NCBI GenBank assembly: GCA_900319485.1 | Contig: ONOQ01000008.1 | Location: 1 to 53,220 of the forward strand | Reading direction: 5' to 3' | DNA: 53,220 nt | Source of the DNA: an uncultured Bacteroidales bacterium | GTDB taxonomy: Bacteria; Bacteroidota; Bacteroidia; Bacteroidales; UBA932 | Translations under genes and position numbers: made by a program | Notes under the pieces: generated by a model | The model's database searches: none | What the model was told of the DNA's origin: nothing | The model's input: only the letters and a program-made list of their open reading frames with translations | Shown: positions 1-53,220 of the stretch, piece by piece | How positions within the stretch are numbered: the first letter of the stretch is position 1 | Layout: each line of letters opens with the position of its first letter

Positions 1-1143
1 AGGTACGAGGTCCTGGACGAGTGCTATATTGCGGACAATGACGTTACCAAGGCCGATGACATAAACTGGCTGGCCGTGGAGGAAGAGGCGTTCAGGCTCA
101 CCGGGAACGAGGACCTCTGGTGCCCTCCCACAAAGGCTGCCGCCGTCCCCTCCGGGCGCATCACCATTACGGATCCTGAGTTCAGCGGGGGTAAGCCCAT
201 AGGCGTTTCCGGGGTGCAGGTGGTGGCAAATATCTTCGTGAAAATAGCGACCTGCTTCACCTCCAGGGACGGCTATTACACTATGCCCAAGAGTTTCTCC
301 GGAAGGCCCCGCTACAGACTGGTCTTCAAAAACGAAAAAGGCTTCTCAATAGGTTTCAATTTCATAATTGTACCTGCCTCGGTGAGCACGTTGGGACTTG
401 GAGGTCCCGAAGGGATTGACGTGGAAGTGAACACGTCATCGGACGAAGCCCTTTTCCGCCGCTGCGCGGTTAATAACGCCGCCTTCGACTATTACTCCCG
501 CTGCACGGAGACGGACCTTGAGATAGCCCCGCCTCCCGGAGACCTCCGCATCTGGATTTTCCCCGGCCTTAGCGCATCCAGCGCCTGTATGCTGCACCAC
601 GGCGCCTTCCTTGACAACGACCTCCTCAGAAGATACCTTGGAGTATGGCTTGGGCTCATCCAGATCTTCCTTCCTGACATAACGATAGGCACTTCCGGGC
701 AGGAGAATTACAAGGCCATATTCAGCGCCACAAGCCACGAACTTGCCCATTCAAGCCACTTCGCGAAGGTTGGAACAGCGTTCTGGTCGCCCTACATCCA
801 GTACATCATCCAGTCATTCGTAACCGGCGGAGGACAGTTTTATGGAACCGGCAGCACGGAAGGCTCCGGTTACTGCGAGGTTGGCGAGATGTGGGGCTAC
901 TTTATGCAGGCGTCGCTGATGAAGGACCGCTACAAGGGGGCTATGGCCACCTATGGAGACAGTTTCTGGTTCAAGCCCGATATCCTCACCTACCTTTACG
1001 AGCGCGGGATGACAAGAGGAGAGATTTACCGTGCGCTCAACGCCAATGCCGTGGATATCGGAAGCCTGAAGGAGGAACTGATAAAGATAGCGCCGGGGCT
1101 TGAGGATGAGATTGTGGAGACATTCCAGCGCTATGGCAAGTAG
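1..1143 (+). CDS. Hypothetical protein with HELAH zinc-metallopeptidase-like motif (5' end outside window)
   Basis: The frame is open from the first base, so the N-terminus lies upstream of the window; a methionine at base 76 is internal. I do not recognise the family. An early segment (about codons 50-120) looks like a carboxypeptidase-regulatory-type beta-sandwich. The second half contains HELAH at codons 246-250 counted from base 1, an HExxH zinc-binding motif, and a later GEMWG segment (near base 885) whose Glu could be a third ligand. This suggests a gluzincin-like peptidase, or a structural relative, exposed outside the cytoplasm. It overlaps the start of the following Mfa2/FimB-like gene by 11 bases, so the two are probably translated together. 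Whether it is an active peptidase is inference. Confidence 0.6.
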   Translation, partial: RYEVLDECYIADNDVTKADDINWLAVEEEAFRLTGNEDLWCPPTKAAAVPSGRITITDPEFSGGKPIGVSGVQVVANIFVKIATCFTSRDGYYTMPKSFSGRPRYRLVFKNEKGFSIGFNFIIVPASVSTLGLGGPEGIDVEVNTSSDEALFRRCAVNNAAFDYYSRCTETDLEIAPPPGDLRIWIFPGLSASSACMLHHGAFLDNDLLRRYLGVWLGLIQIFLPDITIGTSGQENYKAIFSATSHELAHSSHFAKVGTAFWSPYIQYIIQSFVTGGGQFYGTGSTEGSGYCEVGEMWGYFMQASLMKDRYKGAMATYGDSFWFKPDILTYLYERGMTRGEIYRALNANAVDIGSLKEELIKIAPGLEDEIVETFQRYGK

Positions 1144-1873
1144 AAGGGCGATTCCGGCGCTTCTTGTCTCTTTCCTGGTTACATCCTGCGCCGCCGTGAA
1201 AGAAGACCGCCGGAACTGTCCCTGTGAACTTGCCCTCCATTTATCCGGCCCGGGGCCTATCGAATACCGCGTGGAGAGTGTGGAAGGAGGCGTTTTGCAC
1301 GTGGGTTCAGCCCAAGGCGACACCGTCATCTACCGCGATGTCCCCAGGTCCCGGGTAAGGATAATGGCCGTTTCGGGAGCGCCGCTTGGGGATGGTGTGC
1401 ATATCCCATACGGCTCCGAGAGCCCGCCCCTGTACCTTTATCACGGGGTTATATCGGCCCAAAGCGAAGCCCTGAAGGTGAACGCCACCCTCCATAAGAA
1501 TTTCTGCCGGTTGACCCTTGTCCTCGACGGCCCGCCCGGAGACGGAGAGCCCATTGGAATATCAGTGAGGGGCGCCGTGGAAGGAATAAGCCTGGACGGG
1601 AGGCCTGCACCGGGTGATTTCAGATGCAGGGCGGTTTCCGGAGTATGCTCTCTTCCAAGGCAGGCTCCAAGTGACCGCCTCCTTCTTGACATAGTGATGG
1701 AAGACCGGGTGGTGAGAACCTTCGCCCTTGGCACCTACATCCGCGAGGCCGGCTATGACTGGACGGATACCGACCTTGAGGACATTACCATCCACATCTG
1801 CCTTTCCGTGACGCACATCCGCTTCCGGATTGGAGACTGGTCAATGGAGCAGTGCATCAGTGTTGAAATTTAG
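1133..1873 (+). CDS. Mfa2/FimB-type fimbrial anchor lipoprotein
   Basis: The start at 1133 is chosen because it directly precedes a lipoprotein signal (hydrophobic stretch ending VTSC, lipid Cys19); an upstream ATG at 1100 would add a charged leader. Just after the Cys come a KEDRR segment and a CPC motif, the hallmark N-terminus of the Mfa2/FimB family of Bacteroidales minor fimbriae. The C-terminus ends in a IGDW segment, also typical of these two-domain transthyretin-like proteins. At 246 aa it is slightly short for the family (about 280-320). Known members anchor and limit the length of type V fimbriae at the outer membrane. No major fimbrillin is visible in the window; it may lie upstream. 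It overlaps the HELAH-motif gene by 11 bases. Confidence 0.72.
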   Translation: MASRRAIPALLVSFLVTSCAAVKEDRRNCPCELALHLSGPGPIEYRVESVEGGVLHVGSAQGDTVIYRDVPRSRVRIMAVSGAPLGDGVHIPYGSESPPLYLYHGVISAQSEALKVNATLHKNFCRLTLVLDGPPGDGEPIGISVRGAVEGISLDGRPAPGDFRCRAVSGVCSLPRQAPSDRLLLDIVMEDRVVRTFALGTYIREAGYDWTDTDLEDITIHICLSVTHIRFRIGDWSMEQCISVEI

Positions 1874-1883
1874 AATGTAAATG

Positions 1884-1914
1884 TTTGGAGTTCCAAAAAT
1901 TCTTCCTATCTTTG
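1884..1914 (+). promoter_or_regulatory. Bacteroidota sigma-ABfr-type promoter for tRNA-Leu
   Basis: TTTG at 1884-1887, a 19-base spacer, then TATCTTTG at 1907-1914 matches the -33/-7 consensus (TTTG, TAnnTTTG). Transcription would start near 1921, about 13 bases before the mature tRNA. The -33 box sits in a small palindrome (TTTGGA-GT-TCCAAA, 1884-1897). Confidence 0.8.
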
Positions 1915-1933
1915 CAGTCCCGAAAAACAGAAC

Positions 1934-2009
1934 GCGCGGATGGCGGAATTGGTAGACGCGCTACTCTCAGGAGGTAGAGGACGTGTCAGTTCGACTCTGA
2001 TTTCGCGCA
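1934..2009 (+). tRNA. tRNA-Leu (anticodon CAG), short variable region
   Basis: A cloverleaf folds by hand. The acceptor stem is 1934-1940 with 2002-2008 (one G-U pair), with A2009 as discriminator; CCA is not encoded. The D arm contains GGTAGAC as in leucine tRNAs. The anticodon stem is 1961-1965 with 1973-1977 and the loop 1966-1972, giving CAG at 1968-1970. The T arm is 1985-2001 with a TTCGACT loop. The variable region is only 7 bases (1978-1984), whereas leucine tRNAs are normally class II with a long variable arm. A good promoter and terminator flank it, which argues that it is expressed. Confidence 0.88.
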
Positions 2010-2012
2010 CAG

Positions 2013-2040
2013 AAAAGGTGACCGTAAGGCCACCTTTTTT
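2013..2040 (+). terminator. Intrinsic terminator, probably bidirectional
   Basis: AAAAGGTG (2013-2020) pairs with CACCTTTT (2031-2038), with an inner CC/GG pair around GTAA, followed by a T run. It ends the tRNA transcript. Read on the other strand it lies just after the GH97 stop and also ends in a T run. Confidence 0.8.
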
Positions 2041-2043
2041 GCT

Positions 2044-52958: not shown

Positions 52959-52982
52959 TGCTGAATATTAGCCTATTACGCA

Positions 52983-53014
52983 AAAACCCCTATGTAAATA
53001 TGCATAGGGGTTTT
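52983..53014. terminator. Intrinsic terminator after the glycosyltransferase gene
   Basis: AAAACCCCTATG (52983-52994) pairs with CATAGGGGTTTT (53003-53014) around an 8-base loop, with A and T runs at its ends. It can act in both directions. Confidence 0.85.
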
Positions 53015-53062
53015 ATTGTAACCAATTGTTAATGAACTAATTGCATTCGACGCGAAAATAAG

Positions 53063-53083
53063 GTTTTGGGCGCAGCCCAAAAC
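53063..53083 (-). terminator. Second hairpin downstream of the rRNA operon
   Basis: A perfect 9-bp stem (53063-53071 with 53075-53083) with a 3-base loop, followed on the minus strand by CTTATTTTCG. Confidence 0.6.
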
Positions 53084-53086
53084 GAA

Positions 53087-53116
53087 GATAGCCGGGCGCT
53101 TTCGCGTCCGGCTATC
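53087..53116 (-). terminator. First hairpin downstream of the 5S rRNA
   Basis: GATAGCCGG (53087-53095) pairs with CCGGCTATC (53108-53116), with a further GCG/CGC pair and a 4-base TTTC loop (GAAA on the minus strand) inside. It lies directly after the 5S gene on the minus strand and probably ends the rRNA operon together with the next hairpin. Confidence 0.65.
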
Positions 53117-53123
53117 CAAAAAA

Positions 53124-53220
53124 CCGCAGCGACTTACTCTCCCAACTGGTAGGTCAGTACCATCAGCGCGACTGAGCTTAACTTCTCTGTTCGGAATGGG
53201 AAGAGGTGGTTCCTCAGTGC
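53124..53220 (-). rRNA. rrf: 5S ribosomal RNA (3' part; 5' end outside window)
   Basis: The reverse complement contains the conserved 5S segments CCATTCCGAACAGAGAAGTT, GATGGTACTG and GGGAGAGTAAGTCGC. About 97 bases are present and the 5' end runs off the window, so 23S and 16S genes are expected beyond it on the minus strand. The 3' end is placed near 53124 by the end of the terminal stem and is uncertain by a few bases. Confidence 0.93.

Follow-up and report, generated by a model that had tools for sequence, protein, structure and literature searches.

Several kinds of short over-represented words are known from bacterial genomes. The uptake words of Neisseriaceae (DNA uptake sequences, DUS) and Pasteurellaceae (uptake signal sequences, USS) are 9-12 bases long, Chi sites are strand-biased, and the segregation words called FtsK-orienting polar sequences (KOPS) and architecture-imparting sequences (AIMS) are over-represented genome-wide and strand-polarised along the replichore. 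Here we describe a word of seven bases, GGCCGAT (ATCGGCC on the other strand), in a stretch of 53,220 nt from an uncultured Bacteroidales bacterium (contig ONOQ01000008.1, positions 1 to 53,220; hereafter the window), in the genome to which the window belongs and in its relatives. Chi, uptake words and highly iterated palindromes (HIPs) are recognised classes of such words in the available portion of a study of HIPs, which ties each HIP word to a matching methyltransferase (PMC4390886). According to the accessible part of a study of Neisseriaceae, four DUS genomes carry 2,245-3,603 copies each, and the dialects of that family have a core in common and are distributed along the phylogeny (PMC3630211); an excerpt of another gives the selection acting on DUS in Neisseria as a 2Nes of about 4 (PMC2397512). 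In the literature searched, uptake words were found described for Neisseriaceae and Pasteurellaceae alone, no such word was reported for Bacteroidota (titles and abstract openings among the matches listed), and GGCCGAT as a whole word was not found (most subscription journals lay outside the search). We propose, tentatively, that GGCCGAT may be a DUS-like self word of these Bacteroidales, the reading that fits best by analogy with the described systems.

The window contains 87 exact copies, 49 on the plus and 38 on the minus strand, or about one per 610 bases, while 100 dinucleotide shuffles gave a mean of 9.85 (sd 3.3, maximum 17). GGCCGAT also ranks first among the 7-mers of the window for excess over first- and second-order Markov expectation. 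A preliminary description of the window had recognised this strong over-representation; its count of 80-85 was slightly low, its chance expectation of about 9 agrees with the shuffles, and its G+C content of 57% is corrected to a measured 55.1%. It had also suggested looking in the rest of the genome, where the enrichment persists: the window's own genome (2.51 Mb in 91 contigs, 93% complete) holds 3,797 copies (1,914 and 1,883 on the two strands) and 298 of the reversed word used as control (159 and 139). This control is a loose one, the median ratio of word to control being 1.69 in 20 word-poor relatives, and these relatives, like the 23 word-rich and 23 word-poor genomes of the domain surveys below, were chosen by hand. 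All genomes compared are drafts, mostly or all metagenome-assembled genomes (MAGs); about a quarter of the own genome was read (644 kb of the 2.51 Mb, plus short pieces), with genes called by a simple home-made caller that missed some. The 644 kb contain 1,006 copies, 1.56 per kb, with a near-random, exponential-like spacing (CV 1.20). Beyond 23 overlapping palindromes, close pairs include four at 30 bases (plus then minus) and four at 50 bases (minus then plus). One own-genome locus (L090) has a 145-base repeat at 14143-14287, 15966-16110 and 17191-17335, all within 3.2 kb and 92-95% alike to the first copy; each repeat copy holds two inverted GGCCGAT 30 bases apart.

The excess exceeds what the encoded proteins and codon usage predict. 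For the window plus 20 contigs (314.5 kb, 198 called genes, 411 copies), a within-gene shuffle of synonymous codons gave 65.4 expected copies (sd 7.5), and a shuffle that kept one flanking base on each side gave 60.2, with GGCCGAT first among all 7-mers; the excess over these nulls is 6.3-6.9x. Keeping two flanking bases on each side, a conservative procedure in which most of the word's own context is preserved, raised the expectation to 121.6, still a 3.4x excess under the strictest null. The preliminary description had named a similar count in a codon-preserving shuffle as grounds for giving up its claim, and the shuffles gave 65, 60 or 122 against 411. In the called genes of the 644 kb, 798 copies stand against 116-120 expected. 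The word is equally common in both orientations relative to genes (381 sense and 382 antisense coding copies) and occupies three main coding frames, G|GCC|GAT (171), A|TCG|GCC (112) and ATC|GGC|C (86), in agreement with the earlier remark on both gene directions and several frames. It fills 345 of 652 Ala-Asp contexts, 214 of 672 Ser-Ala contexts and 164 of 205 Ile-Gly contexts before C, where multiplied codon frequencies (ATC 52%, GGC 52%) would give only about a quarter. The rare codons said to be forced by the word are indeed rare, TCG making up 9% of Ser, GAT 32% of Asp and CGA 2.1% of Arg codons (444-465 kb of called genes). Outside genes, masking all open reading frames (ORFs) of 100 aa or more, together with one dispersed repeat, left 5.9 kb of intergenic DNA (37% G+C). 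GGCCGAT occurs there 8 times, where 0.40 copies would be expected, and the reversed word does not occur at all; when the mask was tightened, the counts were 4 against 0.21 (60 aa) and 2 against 0.12 (40 aa).

Codon context does account for part of the signal, as the 122 of 411 copies expected with two kept bases show. Nevertheless, the same 7-mer is enriched across three frames that use different codon pairs, the intergenic enrichment largely refutes a bias of codons or composition, and in word-poor relatives the same null gives about 1.0x (21 copies against 22.8, in 127 kb of genes from 15 genomes). A codon or composition artefact is rejected on the synonymous shuffles and the intergenic copies, and it is very improbable that codon-pair or composition bias produced a DNA word that is itself without function. 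Together, the codon-null excess and the intergenic enrichment make GGCCGAT a property of the DNA: a genome-wide word found on either strand, in more than one reading frame and outside genes as well. A trace in the proteins themselves is only suggestive, because ten dipeptides were examined (Ala-Asp 1.13 and Ala-Glu 0.91 in word-rich genomes, 1.08 and 1.10 in word-poor ones).

The whole word is constrained. Measured at synonymous sites, 19 of the 21 one-base changes away from GGCCGAT are avoided with ln odds of at least 1.36, and the median is 2.3; G to T at position 1 is among the mildest (1.36), and the two lowest values (0.86 and 0.88) come from few sites. Among single-mismatch words TGCCGAT alone is clearly enriched (257 against 70, 3.7x over the codon null), the rest lying at 0.40-1.31x. 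GGCCGAT is not self-complementary and is therefore asymmetric. A longer word was considered and rejected, as the flanks contribute little beyond a disfavoured C after GGCCGAT (7% against 13% expected).

Position 1 varies between species around the shared core GCCGAT, so that dialects can be told apart. One genome (G329) uses G only, with GGCCGAT at 2,561 against 347 control words and TGCCGAT at 397 against 367 (ratios 7.4 and 1.1). In the window's own genome G exceeds T (3,797/298 and 1,385/354; ratios 12.7 and 3.9), whereas T equals or exceeds G in G289 (1,447/224 and 2,409/238; 6.5 and 10.1) and G093 (1,702/233 and 2,678/326; 7.3 and 8.2), and the two are nearly equal in G258 (2,020/182 and 2,073/195). 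The sampled sequence of G109 and G381 favours GCCGATG/TGCCGAT. The baseline for TGCCGAT is higher, with a median ratio of 2.45 in the 20 word-poor genomes, and for this reason the own genome's TGCCGAT stands at only 1.6 times this baseline, although at 3.7x by the codon null. Other words gave weak, unconvincing signals in word-poor relatives (samples mostly of 20-40 kb), and dialects are therefore claimed for the GCCGAT family only. How the dialects lie along the phylogeny is read from the ordering of the genomes by PheT identity.

By the SusC-like protein, the six nearest relatives (67-97% identity) are MAGs of Bacteroidales, of which two are labelled as rumen samples (water buffalo and roe deer); the genus, presumably, may be Cryptobacteroides. 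The survey set comprised 400 genomes of this genus, taken from a larger group, and 74 of them (table counted by hand) hold at least 1,000 copies of GGCCGAT, many relatives having 2,500-4,100. For placement we used PheT identity to the own genome, for the first 74 genomes among the matches listed, a number that agrees with the preceding one by coincidence. Among these, 59 of the 62 at 79% identity or more (own genome included) have GGCCGAT at no less than 4x control, the exceptions being G087 (3.98), G408 (2.4) and G118 (1.8); the 12 at 72-78% have a median ratio of 2.7, and density tracks PheT identity (Spearman 0.77 over 73 genomes among the matches listed). By the codon null, the own genome stands at 6.9, three other word-rich genomes at 5.2-6.5 and G109, G112 and G145 at 3.3-4.5, against 0.92 for the 15 pooled word-poor genomes and 1.04, 0.91 and 0.57 for further word-poor relatives. 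Word-rich genomes also occur beyond those 74: G099 and G110 (72% PheT), G005, G109, G112, G145, G233, G381, G394 and G418, some of which have a partial PheT; and 22 of the 400 genomes have no PheT match, several of them word-rich (G073, G183, G253, G303, G354, G371). Therefore, either the trait extends beyond a single clade or these genomes are misplaced by the marker. Beyond the family, one genome was taken from each of 24 other families in the order; in 23 of these the word/control ratio is 0.004-3.1, and the remaining one, G053, has 474 copies against 34, at a low density of 0.18 per kb. A separate observation concerns an order-level relative, G056, in which GGCCGAT is strand-skewed (383 forward, 224 reverse) with a long plus run on contig 1. 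The word is thus largely a feature of a single clade within a Bacteroidales genus, a restriction that could not be seen from the window alone.

Individual sites are retained above background between the own genome and most word-rich relatives aligned. Against the genome of locus L010 (72 kb aligned, 88.4% identity), 93 of 126 copies are intact, compared with 33,950 of 72,104 7-mers (47%). In small samples, words that nearly match proved unstable (GGCCGAC 2/12, GGCCGAG 2/9 and GGCCAAT 1/6 kept), and some other words are equally stable (AGCCGAT 8/8, GGCCCAT 8/11). Loci of G061 and G062 were treated as belonging to G259 and G257, with which they agree exactly in genome size and word count. Further relatives were compared over the aligned region around pheT. 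G220 and G301 (93% identity) keep 21/25 and 19/23 sites, against 0.65 and 0.66 of 7-mers, and the others of the closest six, which span 87-94% identity, keep 12/14, 10/16, 9/12 and 11/13 against 0.70, 0.69, 0.52 and 0.42. At 76-80% identity, G019 keeps 4/12, G158 5/14, G169 7/18, G350 12/23 and G329 4/11, that is 0.33-0.52 against a background of 0.19-0.27, while these genomes hold 2,430-4,066 copies. In the weakly enriched G408, G318, G131, G106 and G243, retention is at or near background. Sites turn over while the density in the genomes stays.

In its anatomy, dialects, copy number and constraint, GGCCGAT is best matched by the uptake words. Like DUS and USS, it is short and asymmetric, lies on both strands in thousands of copies and has conserved sites. 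The copy numbers are alike, the dialects around a shared core resemble those said to follow phylogeny in the available text on Neisseriaceae (PMC3630211), and the estimated constraint is of similar magnitude (median ln odds 2.3 here, 2Nes of about 4 in the excerpt on DUS; PMC2397512). If the likeness is functional, a surface or periplasmic receptor would prefer DNA carrying GGCCGAT, recombination of the fragments taken up would copy the word into genomes and offset its mutational loss, and receptor changes between species would produce dialects, favouring exchange within species. The available part of a study on Riemerella, a transformable member of the same phylum, lists ComEC, DprA, ComF, RecA and four functionally uncharacterised proteins as needed for transformation (PMC8459023), and these four make a receptor of an as yet unrecognised kind plausible.

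Differences from DUS and USS must be set against this. The word has 7 bases rather than 9-12, its host belongs to the Bacteroidales, and it is not clearly depleted in atypical genes. Several results weigh against an uptake role. Genes of atypical codon usage show nearly the usual enrichment (5.7x, against 6.2-7.3x in the others), whereas DUS are reportedly absent from recently acquired genes; occupancy of Ile-Gly-C contexts alone falls with codon atypicality, from 0.89 down to 0.62 (0.69-0.89 in the less atypical genes). Sites found in just one of two genomes differ at two or more bases in 27 of 58 cases (18/33 own-only, 9/25 relative-only), with no clear enrichment over a background of 37%, and because the flanks of lost sites are more diverged (0.829 against 0.884) no recombination can be inferred from these multi-base differences. 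Two signatures expected of uptake, scarcity of the word in foreign genes and sites born by recombination, are weak or absent. The same codon pair shows no difference in conservation within and outside GGCCGAT (83/91 and 39/46, p 0.26), the close relative G257 retains sites no better than 7-mers at large (the 10 of 16 above), and the word-rich G177 (1/15), G093 (1/9), G185 (4/21) and G397 (3/12) are at or near background retention. A ComEC-domain gene was found in 23 of 23 word-rich and 22 of 23 word-poor genomes examined (45/46 in all); since such genes are nearly universal in bacteria, as far as the accessible portion of the source goes (PMC6299819), and equally common in word-poor relatives, their presence is uninformative. 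The own-genome protein (L190:1419-2507, 362 aa) has the Competence domain only; its gene follows a reverse-strand ORF of 404 aa that looks by eye like an acetate kinase.

Among the contents of the longest gaps free of the word are TIR, Fic and sensor kinase genes, and ORFs that have no match in Pfam. Two loci are of interest in their own right. The longest word-free stretch found, 9.2 kb at L060:1579-10826 (45% G+C), contains neighbouring ATPase_2 and TIR-domain genes, which may form a defence pair. The contig OMQK01000020.1 (L011:1-13685) holds only 3 GGCCGAT in 13.7 kb, although it comes from a word-rich MAG with 3,130 copies; GGCCGAA is in excess on it (14 against 2), and it is 77-84% identical to the window, whereas around pheT that genome reaches 93%. 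This contig is either misbinned or an import.

Among the other explanations, an internal role is the most probable. Here, a nucleoid, replication, repair or recombination protein would bind GGCCGAT, and selection or biased repair would keep its density, with neither uptake nor methylation involved. For the constraint on the whole word at synonymous sites, the high occupancy (164/205 for Ile-Gly-C), the random spacing and the near-uniform enrichment in typical and atypical genes, such a role is at least as good an account as uptake. Dialects at position 1 and absence from other members of the genus would be unusual for a core chromosomal function, no candidate protein came to light, although no search aimed at one was made, and we regard this explanation as possible but rather unlikely. 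A segregation role of the KOPS or AIMS kind shares the genome-wide over-representation, but GGCCGAT is not strand-polarised. The same symmetry counts against a Chi-like recombination hotspot read by a nuclease of the RecBCD/AddAB type: there is no bias by gene sense (381:382), nor by contig GC skew (26 contigs, summed by hand), where the G-rich strand carries 411 copies and its complement 437, although the skews are small and stand in only weakly for the leading strand. Chi of E. coli is, moreover, several times sparser than GGCCGAT, and the dialects at position 1 among relatives are a further difference. The points of likeness are that Chi too is a short asymmetric word and that it forms one of the over-represented classes recognised in the available portion of the HIP study (PMC4390886). 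Because GGCCGAT is strand-symmetric, this origin is disfavoured, and we consider it quite improbable.

A HIP-like origin, in which an orphan methyltransferase would recognise GGCCGAT and methylation-linked repair or binding would accumulate copies, in the way proposed for HIP1 and the alternate HIPs of cyanobacteria, is about as hard to sustain, and only slightly less improbable than Chi. The very high density and occupancy resemble those of HIP1, HIP1 and the alternate HIPs are likewise restricted to clades, and the own genome carries one C5 methyltransferase. Departures at the ends of the word are best tolerated in both cases, at the first and last base in HIP, going by the available text (PMC4390886), and at position 1 here. 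On the other hand, HIPs are palindromic and GGCCGAT is not, the overlapping palindrome ATCGGCCGAT occurring in only 23 places among the 1,006 copies. No methyltransferase family was common to the 23 word-rich genomes when five Pfam families were searched at the family cut-off in these incomplete drafts: matches above cut-off were found for PF01555 in 4, PF00145 in 9, PF02384 in 7, PF07669 in 10 and PF02086 in 6, and G161, G158, G399, G254 and G184 (82-92% complete) had none of the five. Weak Eco57I matches below the cut-off, in frames of about 300 aa, appear in most genomes and were left uncounted; they are presumably RNA or protein methyltransferases. Codon bias, Chi and HIP/methylation fit GGCCGAT poorly. 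The preliminary description had read the word as acting at the DNA level and overriding codon preference, which holds; it had listed HIP1, uptake, Chi and segregation words without choosing, and of these the HIP1-, Chi- and segregation-like options are now disfavoured.

Within the window, plus-strand copies lie, among others, at 51..57, 2480..2486, 3586..3592 and 23759..23765, the last being the copy on which that description placed a rare Arg CGA codon. Minus-strand copies include 1453..1459, 31418..31424, 31559..31565, 41783..41789, 41801..41807 and 52211..52217, and two more (51418..51424 and 51673..51679) fall within an ORF on the plus strand (51386-51955) that the gene caller missed. A plus copy at 13656..13662 forms a close pair with a minus copy at 13671..13677, and a cluster of three comprises 34357..34363 (plus), 34378..34384 (minus) and 34402..34408 (minus). 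The gene pheT, the marker that places GGCCGAT on the genus phylogeny, occupies 42350..44794 (minus). One intergenic copy, at 48429..48435 (plus), lies 25 bases from rplT in the spacer between rplT (48,059-48,403) and rpmI (48,484-48,690), both on the minus strand and recognised by eye from their translations. The longest run without the word (26966..30682) covers the end of a SusC-like gene, the next ORF and the start of a hybrid sensor kinase gene; the gap noted earlier at about 26.5-30.7 kb is therefore real, with a later start. Ten of the 16 coordinates first given for copies were exact or within 1 base, and six, off by 2-6 bases, are amended here (13658 to 13656, 13674 to 13671, 31412 to 31418, 34376 to 34378, 41799 to 41801, and 48424 to 48429 for the copy in the rpmI-rplT spacer, which is present as described).

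Other words of this DNA also depart from expectation. The window strongly avoids CTAG (8 against 311), AGCT (36 against 359) and CATG (90 against 387; both strands counted). Between the genes of the own contigs, GGTGCAC/GTGCACC occurs 15 times against 0.6 expected, in a looser intergenic set that includes some coding sequence and repeats. The palindrome TCCGGA exceeds the codon null 1.8-2.9x in the own genome and all 10 other genus sets sampled, alike in word-rich and word-poor genomes, and is a second, genus-wide, HIP-like candidate.

If GGCCGAT does not serve uptake, this strong genome word, restricted to a clade, lacks an explanation and is comparable to HIP1. Should the uptake reading hold, it could mean, though we put this wider proposal more cautiously still, that dozens of uncultured species of the rumen and gut share a Bacteroidota uptake-sequence system, whose receptor would be unrelated to the type IV pilin ComP and whose dialects would divide gene flow among coexisting relatives. 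The genomes of this genus come, to our knowledge, nearly all from metagenomes alone. A true uptake word would provide evidence of genetic exchange that can be read from sequence in a genus for which over 400 species genomes exist, and would serve as a tag by which recent imports and misbinned contigs could be recognised, while the natural shifts of dialect would offer a route to the receptor.

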